IMG/VR virus record: IMGVR_UViG_3300046507_000069
Span: 1-44,193 of that record
DNA length: 44,193 nucleotides
DNA from: a virus
Strand: one strand, 5' to 3'
Shown: positions 5,209 through 44,193 of the stretch, one piece after another
How positions within the stretch are numbered: position 1 is the first letter of the stretch
How the letters are laid out: each line of letters begins with the position of its first letter
The notes under the pieces: model-generated
What the model was told of the DNA's origin: nothing
The model's input: only the letters and a program-made list of their open reading frames with translations
The model's database searches: none
Program-made: the position numbers and the translations under genes

Positions 5209-7491
5209 TTAGAACGGGTTGGGCGGTGGAGTGAACGCCGGTTGCGCGAGATTGGTGTTCACGCGGTCGACGTTGGCGTTACGTGCGGCATCGAGACGGT
5301 TCTTCTCGAAGTCCATCAGCTTGGGCAGACTGAAGATGCCTTCGGGGTGATCGACGATCATGCCGGGAGACTTCTTCAAGACGATGCGCCATTCGCCAGC
5401 GGCGTTGCCAATGGGCTGCACGGTGAGGTCGGACTTGGAGACGCCCTCCTTCTCGCCGTACTTGTTCGCGTAGTCTTCGATGTAGCGCTTCGCCATGTCG
5501 GGGAAGGCAGCAGGGATTGCGCGGTCGCCAGTGCGAACGAGATAGTTGTTCACGTTGACGTAGTTCGCGTTGACCCGCTTCTTCGCTTCGTCGATGGCGA
5601 CAGACGGGCTTGCGCCCAGCTTCGCGAAGTACTTGGCAGCGGTCTCGATCTGCGGAGCGATCTCACCAGCGTTGTCGGGAGCGCCGTTCATGATGAAGCC
5701 CGGCACCGTGCTCTTCACGGCTGTCGAGATGTCATCGAACTTCTGCTTCCAGTACTGGCTCTCGAACTTCGTGGGGTCTTTGTTGACCTCACTAGCGTTG
5801 ATCGCAGCGGTGCGCTTGTCGAAGCCGGCGACCTGAGTGCCGAACCGCATGGCCTCATAGAAGTCCATGCCGGCGTCGTCGAGGTGCTTCTTCAGCAACT
5901 GCGGGTTCTTCGCGTAGAGCTGGTTGTACAGATCACTGGCCGCGTCGAGACCCTGAGGCAGCTTGGAGCCCGAGAGTGCAGCAGGAGTGCCCTGCATGTA
6001 TCCGCGCTTGAGCAACGAGGTCCACTGCGGGTTCTCTTCGCCGTTCTGGCCGAACCAGTTGGCCTCGCGGTCGAACGTCTGGGCACCGGTCTCACCGCGC
6101 TGAACAGCAACGGCTTGCGAGCGGCGCAGGAAGTTGTCGACAACCTCGCCACGGATTTTGTCCGCAGTGAGCGTCTTCTCTTTCCCGTTCTCGTCGGTGA
6201 CCTTCTGGTCCTTCACGGCCCACAGACTGCCCTGCCCTGACAACGTCGAGGCATCGTTGATGACAGCTTGGTGCTGACCATCGGCGAGCTGACGCGAGCG
6301 GACCTTCTCTTCGAGCTTCGAGACTTCAGCGCGGCGCTTCTCCAGCACGGCATCGCTGTGGCGCTTCATCGAGATGATCTGCTCGTCAGTGAAGCGGCCG
6401 GGGTTGGACTGGTGTTCGTCCACCAGCGTCTGATACTTCTTGTCGTCGATCAGACCTTGGTCAGCCTGCTCCTGCCAATTAGAGTGGCTGTCGAAGCTGT
6501 CCCGGTGGTTACGCTGGCGCACTTCCTTGTCAGCCGCATCGAGCAGCTTGACGGACATGTCCGCGTACTTCTGATTGTTCGCCAGCGAGCCGAGTGCATG
6601 ACCGTCAGGGGCCACGCGATCTTCGTTCAGCAGCTTCTGCACCAACTCCGCTTGGAGCTTCGGGTTCGAAGACTGGCTGATGCCCTGCGTGAGCGTTGCC
6701 GCCATCTTGACGACAGCCGCATCTTGATCCGCATAGGGAACGTTCAGGAGGTCCTTGTTGCCCTTGTAGGTGGACCGCAGTTGACTGACGATGTCGTCGG
6801 CCGACTTACCAGAGCTGATGCCCTGCCCGATGATGGCGGTGCCGATCTCGTAGATGCCTTGGCGCGTCTCGGTGTTCACACGGTCGGTGCGATAGCCGGC
6901 CTGATCATTCCTGAGCTTTGCAGCCGCAGGGCCGAACACGCCGTTGAAGCCTGACGAGAAGTGCTTGTCGTTGCCGTACTGATCGAGCGCCGGCTTGGCC
7001 ACACCAGCGACCAGCTTCTCGACGTCGCCGCCATCCTTGTTGAAGCCGTTCTGGTATTGGTCGTTCAGCTCCTGCGTCTTCTGCAGAGCGACCCGCTGGC
7101 CGTACTGCTTCATGAACGCGGCGCGGAACCACGGGTTGCTCATCTCGCCGATGGTGCCCTCTTGGACGCCCTTCTGGGCTTCCTCGAAAGTCATGCCGCC
7201 GATCTTGTTGGACGCGAGCGCTTCCTGCTGTGCCTTCTGGTCATCAGCGACTGCGCCAGCGTAGCCGTTCAGTGCCGGGTTGAGCGTGCCGAGCGCCGCA
7301 GCGAGCTGATGAAGTCCAGCCCCCGCCGCCTGGGTGGTGTCCTCAGGGCGCGAGTAGGTGCTCACCGGAGCTGCCTTCGGGGACAGATCGGGAGCCGGCC
7401 GGTTGCCTGCGGTCTGCGCGCGAGCGTCAGCGGTGATCGTACCGCCCTGCCCGGCGCGCTGGGTCGGCGTTAGTCCTGCAACTGTAGCCAC
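5209..7491 (-). CDS. Internal virion protein (T7 gp15-like)
   Basis: A 760-residue, largely helical protein, matching T7 gp15 (747) in size and position between the gp14-like and gp16-like genes. In T7, gp14, gp15 and gp16 form the internal core that is ejected and makes the periplasmic tunnel. The N-terminal 60 residues are Pro/Thr/Ala-rich and probably flexible. No catalytic motif is visible, and the assignment rests on synteny, length and composition. It begins 3 bp after the stop of the gp14-like gene, implying translational coupling. Confidence 0.85.
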   Translation of the reverse strand: MATVAGLTPTQRAGQGGTITADARAQTAGNRPAPDLSPKAAPVSTYSRPEDTTQAAGAGLHQLAAALGTLNPALNGYAGAVADDQKAQQEALASNKIGGMTFEEAQKGVQEGTIGEMSNPWFRAAFMKQYGQRVALQKTQELNDQYQNGFNKDGGDVEKLVAGVAKPALDQYGNDKHFSSGFNGVFGPAAAKLRNDQAGYRTDRVNTETRQGIYEIGTAIIGQGISSGKSADDIVSQLRSTYKGNKDLLNVPYADQDAAVVKMAATLTQGISQSSNPKLQAELVQKLLNEDRVAPDGHALGSLANNQKYADMSVKLLDAADKEVRQRNHRDSFDSHSNWQEQADQGLIDDKKYQTLVDEHQSNPGRFTDEQIISMKRHSDAVLEKRRAEVSKLEEKVRSRQLADGQHQAVINDASTLSGQGSLWAVKDQKVTDENGKEKTLTADKIRGEVVDNFLRRSQAVAVQRGETGAQTFDREANWFGQNGEENPQWTSLLKRGYMQGTPAALSGSKLPQGLDAASDLYNQLYAKNPQLLKKHLDDAGMDFYEAMRFGTQVAGFDKRTAAINASEVNKDPTKFESQYWKQKFDDISTAVKSTVPGFIMNGAPDNAGEIAPQIETAAKYFAKLGASPSVAIDEAKKRVNANYVNVNNYLVRTGDRAIPAAFPDMAKRYIEDYANKYGEKEGVSKSDLTVQPIGNAAGEWRIVLKKSPGMIVDHPEGIFSLPKLMDFEKNRLDAARNANVDRVNTNLAQPAFTPPPNPF

Positions 7492-11551: not shown

Positions 11552-11579
11552 GTCTACCCACGAGTGGATAGGTTGTGCC
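11552..11579 (-). promoter_or_regulatory. Copy of the 16-bp intergenic element, in a small hairpin
   Basis: The minus-strand sequence at 11564-11579 is GGCACAACCTATCCAC. The CTATCCAC can pair with the GTGGGTAG just after it, making a compact hairpin directly ahead of the capsid terminator. This is the only clear copy in the structural gene block. It starts 4 bp after the capsid stop codon and lies 64 bp before the gp11-like start. Confidence 0.6.
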
Positions 11580-23290: not shown

Positions 23291-23306
23291 GTGGATAGAT
23301 CGGGTT
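23291..23306 (-). promoter_or_regulatory. 16-bp intergenic element (before bL12-like gene)
   Basis: Minus strand AACCCGATCTATCCAC. It overlaps the TAA of the methyltransferase gene and ends 11 bp before the ATG of the bL12-like gene, leaving just the ribosome site between them. Confidence 0.6.
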
Positions 23307-24373: not shown

Positions 24374-24389
24374 GTGGATAGATCAGGTC
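24374..24389 (-). promoter_or_regulatory. 16-bp intergenic element (after primase-helicase)
   Basis: Minus strand GACCTGATCTATCCAC. It overlaps the TGA of the primase-helicase and ends 10 bp before the GTG of the Cys-rich gene, directly abutting its ribosome site. Confidence 0.6.
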
Positions 24390-29143: not shown

Positions 29144-29159
29144 GTGGATAGTTTCACGC
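29144..29159 (-). promoter_or_regulatory. 16-bp intergenic element (after RNA polymerase)
   Basis: Minus strand GCGTGAAACTATCCAC. It includes the polymerase TGA, and the 5' half is poorly conserved. It lies 31 bp upstream of the promoter at 29097-29113. Confidence 0.5.
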
Positions 29160-31679
29160 GAAGAAGTACGGCGATGCGAGCACCTGAGTGAGGTCCAGAT
29201 CACCCTTCTCCGGAGGCACAGGAAGCTCTGCACCCTCGCCGGCTGCTTGCTGGAAGTCAGCGAACAGATCGGCGATCACGTCGAACTCGGTGTACATCCG
29301 CAGGAACTGCTCACGCAGGCTGCATGCCAGCTCGTTGGCGTATCCAGCATGGCATCCAAACGAGTCGTGGATAAGTGAGAACGCACTAATCCCCTTGGTT
29401 GCCGCTGCGTTCACTGTCATCATCAGGTGACTGGCGTCCAACGAGTGGATGACGTTGGGTGCGATGCCTGATGCCTGCTTGCGGCTGTCGAGCTTGCCTC
29501 CGTGGTCCTTGTCGAGGTTCACCTTGATGTTGACGCCGCCGAAGGTCAGCTCCAGCCGTATCGTGTCGCTCAGTTGGTAGTTCTGAGCGGCGACGAAGCC
29601 GACCGGTGTCTTCCAGATCATCGGCTCACCGTTCTTCGAGACCACCCGCGCGCAGGCCTGCAGCCAGTCCATAGCGTGCTTGGCAGCGACCACCACCTCG
29701 CCCACGCCGTCCCAGATCAGGCCTCCCATGTAGCTCGCCGCAGAGAACCCATCGCCTTCGAACGGGAAGTCTTGGGTCTTGTCTGCCTTCCACGGCTTGA
29801 TGGTGTCGACGAACACCTGATCGCGGAAGCCGAACCGCTTGGCACCGTACGCCAGCGTCATCACTGGGCGCTTGGTGACCTTGCGGCTCACCTTGCCGAG
29901 CCAGCCGAGCGCGATAGACGACAGCGCCGGGCCGTCCGCTTCCACCTCGTTGCCATCCGCATCCTTGCGCTTGACCTTGGTGGGCGTGTGGTCGACCGCG
30001 TCCCGCTCAACCATCTTCACGACAACGTCGGCCACCTTCTGATAGATGTCAGAGGGCTTCAGGCCGGGTGTCAGGTTGACCGCTGCGGCACCGACAGGGT
30101 CCAACAGCAGTGCGCTGAAGTTCTGCAGGCCGTTGCACGTACCGTCCATCTGCACGGGCAAGCGGGATTTGTACGCGAGACCTTCGCGCACGTAGCCTGC
30201 CCACTCGAAGCAGAACGCGAGGGCCTGCCACGGCTTCTCTGCGGTCGTCCAGAAGCGGTTGCCGATGGGGTCTTCGGCTGAAGCGATGATGTGCTTCTCG
30301 TTTGCCTTCACCCAGGCGGAGCGATCTTCGAACGAGACCTTGTCGACGCCCCAGCAGCCGGCACCGTGAGAGGCCAGCCACTTCACGCCCTCCTGCGAGC
30401 TGATCGCCACCTCGTCGGAGAACTGCAGCAGGCCACGGCAGCTATCGTTGCCCTGCGGGTGCAGATACAGCGTAGCGGGATACACGCGGCCCCTGAAGTC
30501 GAGCTGATGCGGGAAGTAGAGCGCCTCACGGTCCTTCAGCATGTTGGCCACCCACGTCATGCGGATGAACTGGATGCGCTTACAGGTGGACCGAGCGTTC
30601 TCTTCGTGGGTGCTGTGGGTCTCTTGCTTCCACCGCGAGAACTCCACCTTCTGCCCGTCAGTCATCGCATCGAACTTCAGGTCGGTGGTCAGCCAGAACG
30701 GGCGAGCGGGCAGCGGCGTCGACTGCGCTTCGGGGATTGCACCGAAGGACAGCGAACGCTGATACATCTCATCCATCACCGCGAGCACTTGCTTGTTGAC
30801 CGACCACCGAGTGTTCTGGATGGCGTTGATGGCCGAGTACACGCCGGGCATCTCGATCTTGGCAAGGCCGTTGAGGTAGTTCTTGTCGCCAGTCTTCACC
30901 AGCGTGAGCCGGCGCACCCTGCCCGACCAGTAGCCGCCATCGAACGGAGTCGACCACGGCTTCGGCGGGATGATGGTGGGCAGATAGAGCGGCCACATGA
31001 TCGAGCACCGCTTGTGCTCTTCCTCGATCCACTCAATGGTGCCCAGCGTGGGCTCCAGTGTCTTCCGGGTCTGGCCCTTCACGGTCTCAACGTGCAACGT
31101 GGCGAGGCCGGTGCTTTCGAGGAACAGCTCCACCAGCTTGAGGCCAACGAGCGCACGCTTCTTGACGGGCCACTCTTCGAACTTCGTCTCCACCTTGCGT
31201 GCACTGCTGCGCATGTGACGGCGCTTGTAGGCATCGCTCGGTGACTGCTTCGCCTTCGTGAGGGTCTTCTTGAACGTGTAGAACTTCTGGTCCTTGAACG
31301 CGCGGTAGTGCAGCTCGTCTTCGATCAGCATGGCAACGTCAACGCCGGCTGCGGTGAGCGACACACGGGAAGACAGCCTGTCCAACACCGAGCGCACCGT
31401 GAGGTGCACCACGAGGTCCACGTCGAGGTCCTTGAGGGTGTTGTAGGCTTCACTGCGTCGACCGGCCTTGCCGCTCTTCGCCTCTTCGAGGAACTTGCGG
31501 AGCGCTGCAGCCATGCGGACATGCGCAACGCCCATCAGGCGCTTCGCTGGTGCCGTGTTGGCCTCGCGCTCGTTCTCCTTCGCTTCGGCGACTTGCTTGA
31601 AGTAGCGGTCGACGCCCATCGAGCGCATCTGCTCTTCGAGGGCGATCTGTTCGTCATAGAGGGGGTGCTGTTCAGACAT
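29154..31679 (-). CDS. Single-subunit RNA polymerase (T7 gp1-like)
   Basis: The ATG at 31677-31679 (site AAGGAAG) gives 841 residues (T7: 883). Catalytic motifs: A, QMDGTCNGLQNFS (D512); B, RKVTKRPVMTLAYGAKRFGF (K603, Y611); C, SLIHDSFGCH (D772); and the terminal YFFA resembling the T7 FAFA foot. The specificity-loop region (VGFVAAQNYQLSDTIRLELT and following) differs from T7, fitting a different promoter. It transcribes middle and late genes. An element of the 16-bp family, but no 17-bp promoter, lies directly upstream. Confidence 0.98.
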   Translation of the reverse strand: MSEQHPLYDEQIALEEQMRSMGVDRYFKQVAEAKENEREANTAPAKRLMGVAHVRMAAALRKFLEEAKSGKAGRRSEAYNTLKDLDVDLVVHLTVRSVLDRLSSRVSLTAAGVDVAMLIEDELHYRAFKDQKFYTFKKTLTKAKQSPSDAYKRRHMRSSARKVETKFEEWPVKKRALVGLKLVELFLESTGLATLHVETVKGQTRKTLEPTLGTIEWIEEEHKRCSIMWPLYLPTIIPPKPWSTPFDGGYWSGRVRRLTLVKTGDKNYLNGLAKIEMPGVYSAINAIQNTRWSVNKQVLAVMDEMYQRSLSFGAIPEAQSTPLPARPFWLTTDLKFDAMTDGQKVEFSRWKQETHSTHEENARSTCKRIQFIRMTWVANMLKDREALYFPHQLDFRGRVYPATLYLHPQGNDSCRGLLQFSDEVAISSQEGVKWLASHGAGCWGVDKVSFEDRSAWVKANEKHIIASAEDPIGNRFWTTAEKPWQALAFCFEWAGYVREGLAYKSRLPVQMDGTCNGLQNFSALLLDPVGAAAVNLTPGLKPSDIYQKVADVVVKMVERDAVDHTPTKVKRKDADGNEVEADGPALSSIALGWLGKVSRKVTKRPVMTLAYGAKRFGFRDQVFVDTIKPWKADKTQDFPFEGDGFSAASYMGGLIWDGVGEVVVAAKHAMDWLQACARVVSKNGEPMIWKTPVGFVAAQNYQLSDTIRLELTFGGVNIKVNLDKDHGGKLDSRKQASGIAPNVIHSLDASHLMMTVNAAATKGISAFSLIHDSFGCHAGYANELACSLREQFLRMYTEFDVIADLFADFQQAAGEGAELPVPPEKGDLDLTQVLASPYFFA

Positions 31680-31716
31680 GCGTCTTCCTTTGTGGACTGA
31701 CGGTTGCAATGCAGGG

Positions 31717-31732
31717 ATGGATAGATCGGGAC
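31717..31732 (-). promoter_or_regulatory. 16-bp intergenic element (before RNA polymerase)
   Basis: Minus strand GTCCCGATCTATCCAT, between the 69-residue gene and the polymerase; 37 bp before the ATG. Confidence 0.62.
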
Positions 31733-32555: not shown

Positions 32556-32571
32556 GTGGATAGATGTGCAA
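32556..32571 (-). promoter_or_regulatory. 16-bp intergenic element (before 61-residue gene)
   Basis: Minus strand TTGCACATCTATCCAC, with a divergent 5' half. Twelve bases further on, a partial core ATCTATCC occurs again near 32536-32544. Confidence 0.5.
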
Positions 32572-32668: not shown

Positions 32669-32684
32669 GTGGATAGGTCGAGAC
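32669..32684 (-). promoter_or_regulatory. 16-bp intergenic element (after integrase terminator)
   Basis: Minus strand GTCTCGACCTATCCAC, the best match to the consensus, directly downstream of the integrase terminator and about 150 bp before the 61-residue gene. Confidence 0.65.
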
Positions 32685-32689
32685 ACAAG

Positions 32690-32721
32690 CAAAGTGCCCG
32701 CAGCGCAGAGGCAACGGGCAC
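32690..32721 (-). terminator. Terminator after the integrase gene
   Basis: GTGCCCG/CGGGCAC, 7 bp, 14-base loop (32694-32721), followed on the minus strand by TTTGCTT. The T-tract is short, so termination may be partial. It would isolate integrase transcription from the RNA polymerase block. Confidence 0.65.
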
Positions 32722-32793
32722 CTGATTACTTGATTAATGCTGAAGTGGATTGCACTTGACGTTGGAACCTAAAGATCGTGCTACTTCGAATAC

Positions 32794-33933
32794 TTAGACG
32801 GCTTTCCTGAAGAACTTCAGCACGTTATCAGTATTCGTGCCCTCGTCTTCCGGTGCCACTGCAGCCGGTGTGGCGGGCAATGTGGCATGTGGCGTTTTGT
32901 TCAGCAGCGCGATGGTGGCGGCCAGTCGACGGCCCGAGATATGGATGTATCGCTGGCTCATTGCAAGCGTCGAATGCCCGGCCAGCTTCTGGATGTCCGT
33001 GGCCTCCGCGCCGAGGTCGGCCAGCCGGCTGCAGAACGTATGGCGCATGGTGTGGGGCACCAGCGTCTCGTCGGCGATGCCACAGGTCTCCAGAAGCGTG
33101 TTCCAGCGGTGGCGGATGGCGGACTTCGTCAGCTCGGGGAACAGCTTGGAGCCAGGCGGAAGCGCTTCGGTGCGCCTGTGCCAGATCGCGGCGGCCCGGT
33201 CGGTGAGCGGGATGGTCCTGCCCTTCTTCGACTTGCAGATGCTGCCGTCGAGCACCAGCACCACCGCGCTGTTGCTGCCTTCGAGGCCGTGGGCGTGCGC
33301 CGTGGTGACCTTGCGGGCCTCGCCCTGCCGCATGCCGGTGTCCACTGAGAGCACGATGTAGTCAGCCATGTCCTGATCGCCCTTCAGCATGGCGACGGCT
33401 GTGAGCTGGGCCTCCTCGACTTCCGACACGGTCCTGATGCGCCCCTCCGCTTCGGGCAGGAAGTCGATGACCGGCTTGACGTAGCGCTGCCCGGCGAACA
33501 CCAGCTCCAGCTTGGTGCCCTCCGTCACGATCTTGGACAGGGTCGCCAGCTTGCGGTTGATGGTGCCGTTCGCAAGGCCTTCCTTCAGGCGCAGCGTCTT
33601 GTAGGCCTCGATTGCCGCGTAGTTGACCTTGGGCAGCGCCGTGGCGGCACCGAAGTGGCCCTTGAGGTGAGCGGCGTTGTTGATGCTCCACTCGGCCGAC
33701 GACTGCCCCTTGACCTTCCAGTGGTTCTCCACGACGTAGTCAGCGAGCTGGCCGAACGTGGTGATCTTCTTGGGGTCGGCGGCTCCAGGAATTTCTGTGC
33801 CAGCCTCCAGAGCGGCGCGCGTGGCGTCGTGCCACGCCTGCGCTTCGACTGCGGTCTGGAAGTCCTTGCGCAGCCGCGTGCCCTTCCAGCTCACCGTGGC
33901 TTGAAAGCTCTCGCCCCTTGGCTTAACACCCAT
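32794..33933 (-). CDS. int: Tyrosine integrase
   Basis: 379 residues with site AGGAG. The N-terminal 60 residues form an arm-binding-like domain, 61-165 a SAM-like core-binding domain, and 170-335 the catalytic domain with the full set: R202 (DTGMRQGE), a Lys in SKKGRT near 236, H294-x-x-R297 (HTMRH), H320 (AGHSTLAMS) and Y329 (RYIH). Phage integrases of this type recombine attP with a host site, often a tRNA gene. Its start codon is 30 bp from a complete tRNA-Leu. An integrase is uncommon in T7-like phages and indicates a capacity for lysogeny. Confidence 0.95.
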   Translation of the reverse strand: MGVKPRGESFQATVSWKGTRLRKDFQTAVEAQAWHDATRAALEAGTEIPGAADPKKITTFGQLADYVVENHWKVKGQSSAEWSINNAAHLKGHFGAATALPKVNYAAIEAYKTLRLKEGLANGTINRKLATLSKIVTEGTKLELVFAGQRYVKPVIDFLPEAEGRIRTVSEVEEAQLTAVAMLKGDQDMADYIVLSVDTGMRQGEARKVTTAHAHGLEGSNSAVVLVLDGSICKSKKGRTIPLTDRAAAIWHRRTEALPPGSKLFPELTKSAIRHRWNTLLETCGIADETLVPHTMRHTFCSRLADLGAEATDIQKLAGHSTLAMSQRYIHISGRRLAATIALLNKTPHATLPATPAAVAPEDEGTNTDNVLKFFRKAV

Positions 33934-33947
33934 TGTGGTCTCCTGAG

Positions 33948-33963
33948 GTGGATAGATTGAAAC
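33948..33963 (-). promoter_or_regulatory. 16-bp intergenic element (before integrase)
   Basis: Minus strand GTTTCAATCTATCCAC. It lies exactly between the tRNA 5' end (33964) and the integrase ribosome site. Confidence 0.6.
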
Positions 33964-34048
33964 GCGGGTATGGCGGAATTGGTAGACGCAGCGGCTTTAG
34001 GTGCCGCCGCTTAACGGCGTGGGGGTTCGAGTCCCTCTACCCGCACCA
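33964..34048 (+). tRNA. tRNA-Leu(UAG), probable attachment site
   Basis: Acceptor GCGGGTA/TACCCGC is perfect, the discriminator is A and the CCA is encoded. D arm GCG/CGC, anticodon arm GCGGC-TTTAGGT-GCCGC with anticodon TAG, long variable arm CGC...GCG, T arm with TTCGAGT. It looks fully functional. It is one of the few features on the plus strand. Being beside the integrase suggests that it carries attP and restores the host tRNA after integration, as in some marine T7-like phages whose attP matches a host tRNA-Leu. A translational role is also possible. Confidence 0.95.
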
Positions 34049-34444
34049 TCAGGCCACGTTGTAGATGCGGCTGATGGCTTCCTTCGCGGTGGGCGACTTC
34101 AGGTCGAACGCCGGGTCCAGATGGCGCATCACGGTGTTGACCACCTTCTGGCCCTTCGTGGTCAGATAGATGATCTTGCGGCGGCGCTCGCGCGGGTCGT
34201 CAACGGCCTCGACGAGGTCGTACCCTTCCTTGCCCAAGCGGTGATACTTCGAGAGCATCGCCACGTTGCGCGAGCAGGACGACTGTGCGAGCCCGGTTTG
34301 CTCCGACAGCTTCTGCATGGTGATGCCGGGGTTCACCGCCACCACCAGAAGGCACTCAATGGTCTGCGCCGGAATGTACGGGTCGATCTCTCGCAACGCT
34401 GAGAGGAAAGCGACGGCCGTGTGTAGCGGCTTCATTGATGACAT
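34049..34444 (-). CDS. MarR-like winged-helix transcriptional regulator
   Basis: 131 residues, site GGAG. The region 41-106 (MQKLSEQTGLAQSSCSRNVA, then a wing with DDPRERRRKIIYLTTKGQKV) is the MarR pattern: recognition helix, DxR wing and TKGQ. MarR proteins bind short palindromes as dimers. Its stop codon directly abuts the tRNA 3' end, so marR and tRNA converge. With integrase nearby it is a candidate lysogeny regulator, replacing a CI-type repressor; that role is inference. Confidence 0.85.
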   Translation of the reverse strand: MSSMKPLHTAVAFLSALREIDPYIPAQTIECLLVVAVNPGITMQKLSEQTGLAQSSCSRNVAMLSKYHRLGKEGYDLVEAVDDPRERRRKIIYLTTKGQKVVNTVMRHLDPAFDLKSPTAKEAISRIYNVA

Positions 34445-37060: not shown

Positions 37061-37076
37061 GTGGATAGATCAGGCC
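37061..37076 (-). promoter_or_regulatory. 16-bp intergenic element (after first early gene)
   Basis: Minus strand GGCCTGATCTATCCAC followed by A, so its last nine bases (CTATCCACA) differ from a DnaA box (TTATCCACA) by one base. The TGA of the 248-residue gene is inside it. Confidence 0.6.
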
Positions 37077-37831: not shown

Positions 37832-37847
37832 GTGGATAGGTTGAGAC
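37832..37847 (-). promoter_or_regulatory. 16-bp intergenic element (before first early gene)
   Basis: Minus strand GTCTCAACCTATCCAC. It is the first copy in the direction of transcription, 15 bp before the ATG and next to the ribosome site. Confidence 0.62.
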
Positions 37848-40925: not shown

Positions 40926-42335
40926 TTAGGTGATCATGCTCGTGATCGCACCGCGCACGGCTCCAGCGGCACGGAAGCCGAGGAACTCATTGCCGGCGAG
41001 CGACGGGTGAGCGCCATCCGGGTCGACGTAGACATCGGAGTTGCCAGTGCTGTTCGGTGCACCGAGCTTGCCCGTGCCGTTCAACCAAGTGGGCACTGCG
41101 GTTGACACCGGAGCGAACTTGCAGAACGGGTCGTTGAACTGGGTGACAGCAGCAGCGATGGCACCTTCGCACGCGATCTGCGCAGCGTTGGGTCCAGCGT
41201 TGCCGGCCTGACAGCCAAGCACCACGATGGGCGTGTTCGGATACATCTTGCGCAGGAGCTGGTAGCACGCGAGCGCTTCAGCCTGCACAGCGGCAGGAGT
41301 GTTCGACGAGTCGTTGTAGCCGTGGGCAATGACGATGACGTCGTACGGCCCCTGATAGGCCACGAGCGGGATGAGGTCGCGCAGCTTCGAGCGGGTGCCG
41401 GTCGCGGTCGCGAGGTAGCCGGTCTGTCCGACAGCGAGCTGCCTACAGTCGCGGATGCCGAGCAGCTCACAGGCGATGACGTTCCACGCAGCGTTGGGCA
41501 CCGGGTAGACCGTGGCCGCGCCGTTGGTGCCTTCGCTGTAGCTATCGCCGAACCATCCGCAGCGGAGCACTTGCGATTGCGAGGGCTTCCACACGGTGCA
41601 CGTTGCCGTGGTCCTGATGGTCTTGATCAGACACGGACCCTTGGACGGCAGCGACGGAACGAGGACGCGGATGCGCCGAGGCTTGCGGGATGCGAACGTC
41701 ATCGTGATGAACGTGTCCGCATTGGCCGCACCAAGGCCGGTGACACCAACCTTGTCGACGTACTGGCCATCGACCTGCAGCATCACCTTGACGGCGTTGC
41801 TCATGAAGATGGTGAGCTGGACCTTGTCGGAGTCGGTCGAGAACTCGAAGGCCGAGGCCCACTGGTTCTTGTCAGCGAAGCCGCTGCCGATGTTTCCGTT
41901 GGTCGACGGCAGCACGGTGGTGACCGGCATGCAGGCGTAGGCAGTCAGGACGGGGTTCGGAACGCCGCCATACCACGCAACCTGATTGAGCGCGAAGGGC
42001 GTGAGGACGCCACCGGTCGCAATCGAGTTGACCGTCAGTGTGCCGTCAGAGGTCGCGCCAACAGCCACGGTGGGCGGGGTCGACATCACGTCGCGCTGAT
42101 AAGGGTTCACCTCGTGCGCGGTGTCCATGATCGCGCGCATGCGCTTCGCGTTGTCCATCGCGACACTGCCAACCCAGATGGCCGCGCGCAGAGAGTTGTC
42201 GACGCAGATGTACGTGCGGTTGGCGACGAAGTCGAACCACTCGAAGCCTACGGGAAACCCCCGAGAGCCATCGGCGTTTGCGTCAGGAGGCGCGGGAAAG
42301 TTCGGCCCCTGATTGGCCGTGTACGGGAGATACAT
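40926..42335 (-). CDS. SGNH/GDSL hydrolase, virion-associated
   Basis: 469 residues, site AGGA. The N-terminal 60 residues (GFEWFDFVANRTYICVDNSL) resemble tail-protein attachment domains. A beta-rich middle is followed by the hydrolase: block I GWFGDSYSEG (Ser265), block II GQTGY, block III AHGYNDSS (Asn341) and block V DPDGAHP (Asp440, His443). Such enzymes deacetylate or de-esterify surface polysaccharides. A location between TerS and TerL, with a tail-like N-terminus, suggests a second receptor-modifying protein alongside the tail fibre. Confidence 0.88.
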   Translation of the reverse strand: MYLPYTANQGPNFPAPPDANADGSRGFPVGFEWFDFVANRTYICVDNSLRAAIWVGSVAMDNAKRMRAIMDTAHEVNPYQRDVMSTPPTVAVGATSDGTLTVNSIATGGVLTPFALNQVAWYGGVPNPVLTAYACMPVTTVLPSTNGNIGSGFADKNQWASAFEFSTDSDKVQLTIFMSNAVKVMLQVDGQYVDKVGVTGLGAANADTFITMTFASRKPRRIRVLVPSLPSKGPCLIKTIRTTATCTVWKPSQSQVLRCGWFGDSYSEGTNGAATVYPVPNAAWNVIACELLGIRDCRQLAVGQTGYLATATGTRSKLRDLIPLVAYQGPYDVIVIAHGYNDSSNTPAAVQAEALACYQLLRKMYPNTPIVVLGCQAGNAGPNAAQIACEGAIAAAVTQFNDPFCKFAPVSTAVPTWLNGTGKLGAPNSTGNSDVYVDPDGAHPSLAGNEFLGFRAAGAVRGAITSMIT

Positions 42336-43245: not shown

Positions 43246-44193
43246 TTAGATCAACGGATTGTAGGTGCCGACAGTGCCACCGGCTTCGATGGCTCCCTCG
43301 ATCCCGTCGAAGAACGACTGGAAGATGTTGAGGGTAGCGCCTGCGGCAATGTAGATGCCGTAGGATGCGATGCCGCTGGCCTCGACGTTGTCCGCCCAAG
43401 TCGGACCTTCGAACCACAGGTTCTGGTACGCGTCGACATGCCCACCGACGTCCCCGCTGTACGGAGACAGACCACGGGTGCCGATCAGAAGGATGTACGG
43501 ACCAACGTTGTTGGCGTTGACGACGTGCGCGATGTTCTGGCCGAAGTTGCCGAAGTACTTGCCGTTGATGTGGACACCAACGCCAGCGCCGTGGCACGAC
43601 GAGCCCTGACAGTTCCTGTTCGATGCACCGAGGCCGTTCGCGGACATGCCGCCACCAGCCTGCCAGTACCCCGGATTGTCCGGAGGGTTCAGCCCGAGGG
43701 CCGTTCCGATGCAGAGATAGAAGATGCCGTTGAGCGTCACCGCGTCATTGAACGCGTAGGTCGACCCAGCCGAGTATTCGCCACGGAAGTTATACGGGCT
43801 CTTCTGGTTGAACAGACCGTTGTTGAACGAGCGGCAATCGATCTCGGCGAACTGAAACTCGACGCCGAGGCCGGGGAAGCCGTCGATGCCGCGTTCGTAA
43901 TAGTTGAAGCCGTCCGAGTTCAGACAGTGAGCGCTGGTGCACTCCTGCGAGTGGGTGATCGCACCTTCAGCGTGGAAGTTCGCACTGGAGCCGAACAGCA
44001 TGCTGCAGCGGTACATGAAGTTGACCGGGCGCAGCGTGGTGTTGTCCGGGTCCCAGACGATGTACGGCATCTTGCAGCCGACAAAGCTGACGCCTTCCCA
44101 GTACAGCGTCGTGCCGAACATCGTGCCTTCGGCATCGGTGTCGGTCGCGCCAGAGGCGTAGATGACTTCGAATTTTGCCTTGTTGGCTTCGAT
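43246..44193 (-). CDS. Tail fibre protein, C-terminal part (continues from base 1)
   Basis: This is the 3' part of the gene that begins at 1332. The frame enters at the window edge (in circular coordinates it continues from base 1) and ends at 43246. It is Gly/Asn-rich with repeated short strands and aromatic residues (GEYSAGSTYAFNDAVTLNGI; GLSPYSGDVGGHVDAYQNLW), in line with a beta-helical receptor-binding or depolymerase domain. The stop is followed after 8 bp by the GTG of the small membrane protein. In the overlap this copy encodes Lys where bases 1-147 encode Asn. Confidence 0.88.
   Translation of the reverse strand: MEANKAKFEVIYASGATDTDAEGTMFGTTLYWEGVSFVGCKMPYIVWDPDNTTLRPVNFMYRCSMLFGSSANFHAEGAITHSQECTSAHCLNSDGFNYYERGIDGFPGLGVEFQFAEIDCRSFNNGLFNQKSPYNFRGEYSAGSTYAFNDAVTLNGIFYLCIGTALGLNPPDNPGYWQAGGGMSANGLGASNRNCQGSSCHGAGVGVHINGKYFGNFGQNIAHVVNANNVGPYILLIGTRGLSPYSGDVGGHVDAYQNLWFEGPTWADNVEASGIASYGIYIAAGATLNIFQSFFDGIEGAIEAGGTVGTYNPLI
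44047..44193. repeat. Terminal overlap, copy 2 (circular join)
   Basis: Matches bases 1-147 except at 44173. See the entry at base 1; counting only one copy, the genome is about 44,046 bp. Confidence 0.93.

Follow-up and report, generated by a model that had tools for sequence, protein, structure and literature searches.

The block of integrase, tRNA-Leu and MarR-like genes at 32794-34444 of a T7-like phage genome is very probably a lysogeny module of the tRNA-dependent kind, in which the tRNA-Leu(UAG) gene carried by the phage replaces a host gene destroyed on integration. The integrase would recombine a 12-nt core at 32762-32773 with the anticodon loop of the host tRNA-Leu(UAG) gene. The host gene would then be split, as it is in related lysogens, because too little sequence is shared to restore it, and the phage gene would supply the lysogen with the essential tRNA it had lost. 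The anticodon match argues for this replacement, as does the fact that a search of the genomes of five related lysogens found no other intact copy. The likeliest candidate for the lysogenic repressor is the MarR-like protein.

The integrase block and its genome

The stretch analysed (the window) is a complete IMG/VR record of 44,193 nt. A 147-bp repeat (99% identical, at 1-147 and 44047-44193) is the overlap of a closed assembly rather than a physical terminal repeat. Because both contig ends lie among tail genes and share this repeat, we infer a closed map of approximately 44,046 bp, opened at an arbitrary point in the tail-fibre region; the integrase/tRNA/MarR block is thus not an assembly-edge artefact. 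The window encodes the single-subunit RNA polymerase, DNA polymerase, portal and T7-like terminase of Autographiviridae-type phages (PHROG, Pfam). Its closest named phage at the DNA level is Rhizobium phage vB_RleA_TRX32-1 (vTRX32-1; 71.5% identity, terminase region), its GC content is approximately 61%, and its host is likely an alphaproteobacterium. A GDSL-lipase-like protein (PF13472) with a head-decoration PHROG match adjoins the terminase (40926-42335); it may belong to the virion and attack surface polysaccharide. The features of the block and its surroundings are as follows.

34049..34444, minus strand: MarR-like winged-helix regulator, 131 aa (PHROG 9665, E 1e-28)
33964..34048, plus strand: complete tRNA-Leu(UAG) with encoded CCA (ARAGORN; Rfam RF00005, 55.4 bits)
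32794..33933, minus strand: tyrosine integrase, 379 aa (PHROG 1, E 2e-41; Pfam PF00589, E 1e-18)
32762-32778, minus strand: 17-nt block CGATCTTTAGGTTCCAA around the core, common to the window and its sister phage L008 (sequence comparison)
32762..32773, minus strand: predicted attP core TTTAGGTTCCAA, corresponding to the anticodon loop and 3' anticodon stem of tRNA-Leu(UAG)
32694..32722 (approximate), minus strand: terminator-like hairpin between attP and the RNA polymerase gene (equivalent hairpin in relatives)
29154..31709, minus strand: single-subunit RNA polymerase, 851 aa (PHROG 414, PF00940)

Along the minus strand, the MarR-like gene (34444-34049) is followed by antisense tRNA-Leu, integrase (33933-32794), attP core (32773-32762), terminator-like hairpin (~32722-32694) and RNA polymerase (31709-29154). 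As the original prediction held, the integrase has its full catalytic set: besides the PHROG 1 and PF00589 matches, R202, K234, H294, R297, H320 and Y329 are invariant in an alignment of nine members. The tRNA, 30 nt from the integrase start, proved complete, as had also been claimed; both ARAGORN and Rfam recognise it, and it folds into a cloverleaf with a variable arm, A73 and encoded CCA, the last directly abutted by the stop codon of the MarR-like ORF. The window and L008 tRNAs differ by seven substitutions in 85 sites. In two anticodon-stem base pairs both partners are substituted, and every pair remains intact; the predicted fold is preserved through compensated changes.

Split tRNA-Leu genes and the predicted attachment site

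Bacterial genomes were scanned with the integrase alignment for related prophages. In the informative ones, the sequence beyond the integrase end is host tRNA-Leu from the anticodon loop onward, that is the 3' half of the gene, and the matching 5' half lies approximately 40 kb away (on a separate contig in Maritalea). Both junctions were identified in five lysogens, in which tRNA-Leu is split at the anticodon loop and the shared core is 9-15 bp; a sixth prophage gave one junction.

R. anhuiense lysogen, both junctions: shared core CAGATTTAGGTT
R. mongolense lysogen, both junctions: shared core CAGATTTAGGTTCTG
Rhizobiales AFS091568 lysogen, both junctions: shared core GACTTAAAA
Litchfieldella lysogen, both junctions: shared core CTGGATTTAGGTT
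Maritalea lysogen, both junctions: shared core TTTAGGTTCTG
Telmatospirillum prophage, one junction only: CAA tRNA and CAA site

When the flanks were joined in silico, a tRNA-Leu 84-86 nt long was recognised in each of the five, and its anticodon was the one expected. The phage tRNA is uninterrupted within these prophages, and phage and host tRNAs are clearly different in alignments. In a pattern search of the draft genomes allowing few mismatches, the remaining intact tRNA-Leu genes of the five lysogens were other isoacceptors, and the split isoacceptor was intact in the prophage only. The statement in the vTRX32-1 paper that the phage tRNA lacks the core is not general, as the Litchfieldella prophage tRNA retains most of it. 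Integration at a host tRNA-Leu, which the original prediction had put forward, is very well supported by the split genes of relatives, but the complete tRNA beside the integrase is not the site. The prophage search that it had recommended likewise found relatives in split tRNA-Leu genes and no prophage of the window phage or of L008; among 51 genomes from the order of R. anhuiense, the integrases recovered were just 35-36% identical, and no close prophage was found.

Three other loci were noted. A degraded integration remnant of approximately 3 kb (G007:C23 74463-77744; L036, L214, L215) was excluded from the junction set; a truncated integrase is joined there to a tRNA-Leu(UAA) 5' half in the opposite orientation, with an intact UAA tRNA on the other side. 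In Marinobacter EhC06 (L027, ~1965-2040), a related integrase with no phage tRNA nearby is followed by a tRNA-Sec(TCA)-like 3' half, from a gene that may be dispensable. An apparent tRNA-Arg(TCG) 5' half downstream of the integrase in L014 (~1450-1510) suggests another target and another kind of attP.

In the window, CGATCTTTAGGTTCCAA lies past the integrase stop, on the other side from the tRNA and just outside 32794-34444. In L008, whose integrase is 75% identical, the 17 bases are unchanged and the flanks vary. Relative to the integrase, the core lies where the two junctions place the proven cores of related lysogens, and relatives with a UAA tRNA, including LUZ100, have CTTAAAA in the equivalent place. 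The 5' side of the window core is unlike known anticodon stems. The 12-nt core is the probable attP, placed by its position and sequence; it is defined by analogy, since the scan yielded no prophage of this phage or L008. Neither in the window nor in the tRNA-bearing relatives examined is the core followed by a T-arm, so the host tRNA gene would not be rebuilt, in agreement with the split halves in relatives; the window thus lacks the 3' part of a tRNA that canonical tRNA-integrating phages carry in attP. The junction predicted for the window phage is a tRNA-Leu(UAG) 5' half ending in TTTAGGTTCCA and followed by phage DNA, and its host is predicted to have no second intact tRNA-Leu(UAG).

We then analysed loci with a tRNA-Leu near an integrase, masking the tRNA and seeking leucine anticodon-loop heptamers up to 300 nt downstream of the integrase. 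With integrases clustered at 90% identity, the carried anticodon recurs in attP in 31 of 38 clusters (20,000 label shuffles: mean 13.5, maximum 23), and at 60% identity in 18 of 24 (mean 7.0, maximum 15), the clusters being not fully independent and the loop set having been picked after examples had been seen. The anticodons concerned are UAA, UAG and CAA, and the window itself is concordant, with a UAG tRNA and a UAG core. Seven of the 38 clusters lack a concordant loop close to the integrase; among them are phages in which a further gene immediately follows it. The genome of Bordetella phage BB8 (L216, ~7035-7060) combines an integrase with a UAG-like core, CTTAGGA, but contains no tRNA gene; the gene upstream of its integrase has no PHROG 9665 match. 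Should BB8 integrate at this core, lysogeny should fail, and it has perhaps decayed to a lytic life. In Lo5R7ANS (L004, 6161-7582), the integrase and tRNA-Leu are separated by a BglII-like restriction enzyme and a methyltransferase, and attP was not located at this locus.

The complete tRNA-Leu might instead be attP itself, or a remnant of imprecise excision, given that it adjoins the integrase and that tRNA genes are common attachment sites (PMC10134795). We consider this very unlikely. The real junctions in relatives lie across the integrase, which rules out the complete tRNA as attP; the phage tRNA is whole in those prophages and differs from its host counterpart; and a remnant would neither stay folded by compensated changes nor match the anticodon of attP.

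Many virulent phages carry tRNAs for translation or for countering tRNA-cleaving defences. A role of this type in lytic growth (mentioned in PMC10865867), with the gene next to the integrase by chance, is highly improbable here: CTA makes up just 12 of 798 Leu codons (1.5%) in the 22 long ORFs of the window, so codon supply is a weak explanation, and in most relatives the tRNA is the integrase's neighbour, with an anticodon that follows that of attP. It is also unlikely that the module integrates only transiently in a phage that is lytic in practice. The T7-like cyanophages S-TIP37 and P-SSP7 do integrate without stable lysogeny (PMC8776855), and stable lysogens of LUZ100 were not obtained (PMC10134795). 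However, the attP of those cyanophages is a tRNA segment (PMC8776855), and relatives with the same arrangement as the window sit as prophages in sequenced genomes; one of them, vTRX32-1, was induced from its lysogen, and its authors read its tRNA as a replacement (PMC8631192). Replacement of a destroyed host tRNA-Leu(UAG) is thus the reading we favour for the window.

A candidate repressor, operator-like sites and the RNA polymerase

It had been suggested that a MarR-like gene with a host-type promoter faces the tRNA. The gene and its convergence on the tRNA were upheld, but a sigma-70 scan found no such promoter (one site in the region versus 2.1 expected). PHROG 9665 also contains the integrase-adjoining genes of LUZ100, vTRX32-1, Pasto and Lo5R7ANS, and a homologue is present in 10 of 12 related records. 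Pfam MarR_2 (E 0.0015) is below the cut-off for the window protein and HTH_24 above it; the best solved-structure (PDB) matches are MarR regulators, and the vTRX32-1 homologue passes MarR_2. Pfam recognised no further repressor in the early region, consistent with the earlier remark that no CI-type repressor is visible. The MarR-like protein is the likeliest lysogenic repressor; that it acts as the switch is a hypothesis, proposed earlier for LUZ100 (PMC10134795), to which an operator-like motif lends indirect support.

This motif reads CTATCCAC on the transcribed strand, and the 9-mer family that includes it is more over-represented than any other in the window and L008. It lies mostly just upstream of genes, in a single orientation, and near matches to GTGGATAGAT number 12 versus 1.2 expected. 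The motif search gave these sites, all on the plus strand.

37832..37841: operator-like site directly 5' of the early 248-aa gene
37061..37070: operator-like site, early region
33948..33957: operator-like site CTATCCAC in the gap between the tRNA and the integrase start
32669..32678: operator-like site 3' of attP
32556..32565: operator-like site in the interval between attP and RNA polymerase
31717..31726: operator-like site
29144..29153: operator-like site 3' of RNA polymerase
24374..24383: operator-like site 5' of a middle gene
23291..23300: operator-like site 5' of a middle gene
11564..11573: operator-like site in the late region, with the best palindrome TATCCACTCGTGGGTA

Counted at 12 or more of 14 matches, the palindrome TATYCACnnGTGRATA is enriched (5-14 sites versus 0-0.45 expected) in the window, L008, LUZ100, vTRX32-1, L011, L120, L012 and the AFS091568 prophage, and weakly enriched in Litchfieldella (three sites) and Pasto (two). 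It is absent or present once in T7, gh-1, BB8, Lo5R7ANS, L112, L143 and L106. As Lo5R7ANS, L143 and L106 have the MarR-like gene too, a link between this protein and the TATCCAC palindrome is no more than suggestive. Since the window, LUZ100 and vTRX32-like attL regions are where the motif was first seen, L008, L011, L120 and L012 are the more independent tests. In LUZ100, CTATCCAC occurs between the -35 and -10 boxes of host promoters P1 and P2, apart from the phage promoters that have been mapped (ATTACCACACAG), which disfavours its being a phage promoter. A search of the window for a phage promoter of its own recognised none.

The terminator-like hairpin lies 24-80 nt 3' of the core in all 11 sequences examined, and the RNA polymerase match starts 0.2-1.1 kb past the core in nine of them, the other two sequences being short. 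With attP between the integrase and the terminator and polymerase, integration would put the polymerase at the opposite end of the prophage from the MarR-int operon. According to the LUZ100 authors, the polymerase is first expressed via read-through of that operon (PMC10134795), a route that would be cut in the lysogen. We propose tentatively, as a possibility rather than an expectation, that dispersed TATCCAC-nn-GTGGATA operators, all in one orientation, serve as binding sites for the MarR-like protein and that integration unlinks the polymerase from the MarR-int operon. If the unlinking is true, read-through could no longer reach the polymerase in the prophage, and transcripts coming from the split host tRNA would be stopped at the terminator. 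The operator-like sites and the int-attP-terminator-RNA polymerase order are the newer, unproven part of this account, and offer concrete tests of how a T7-type polymerase stays silent in a lysogen.

Comparison with known systems

T7-like phages are often presumed to be strictly lytic and are picked for therapy. A complete tRNA-Leu by the integrase, with the same anticodon in a short downstream core, is a feature easily read from sequence that points to lysogeny by gene replacement.

For the vB_RleA_TRX32-1 group (Paadamvirus; PMC8631192), Ford et al. 2021 described a core of 12 bp and proposed that the phage tRNA takes the place of the interrupted tRNA-Leu. Those phages resemble the window in being T7-like, with an integrase, an adjoining antisense tRNA-Leu(UAG) and a core, CAGATTTAGGTT, downstream of int and within the host tRNA-Leu; unlike the window, they have an integrase that is only ~34% identical to it, another core sequence and a prophage proven to be inducible. 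Pseudomonas phage LUZ100 has MarR, antisense tRNA-Leu, integrase, attP-like core, terminator T4 and RNA polymerase in the same order, so the arrangement itself is already published (PMC10134795). It differs in its UAA anticodon, with a matching UAA core, and in forming no stable lysogens. Its authors regarded the tRNA-Leu as a remnant of imprecise excision (PMC10134795); because the UAA core matches the UAA tRNA, it is arguably not one, and the present results offer a second reading, as a replacement.

Among T7-like phages, HTVC019P-type pelagiphages and uv-Fonsiphage-EPL also integrate in tRNA-Leu(TAG), and their own tRNA-Leu is said to replace the lost one (by Chen et al. 2019 for the Fonsibacter phage), but their hosts are SAR11 and integrase similarity is low (PMC6811365). 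Cyanophages P-SSP7 and S-TIP37 share an attP downstream of int and a tRNA-Leu target, whereas their attP is a tRNA segment and their integration is transient, without stable lysogens (PMC8776855). Guerrero-Bustamante and Hatfull 2024 proved the mechanism in actinobacteriophages, including mycobacteriophages, gave it the name tRNA-dependent lysogeny and did not settle how widely it occurs elsewhere (PMC10865867). Fionnbharth and Gaia have an 8-17 bp core in a tRNA gene, no reconstruction and a cognate phage tRNA; they are phages of Actinobacteria unrelated to the window, and their tRNA requirement is proven by mutants. Thus, the mechanism is already known in a few phages, and what is added here is the anticodon rule across isoacceptors and host classes, which extends tRNA-dependent lysogeny to alpha- and gammaproteobacterial hosts and to at least three leucine isoacceptors.
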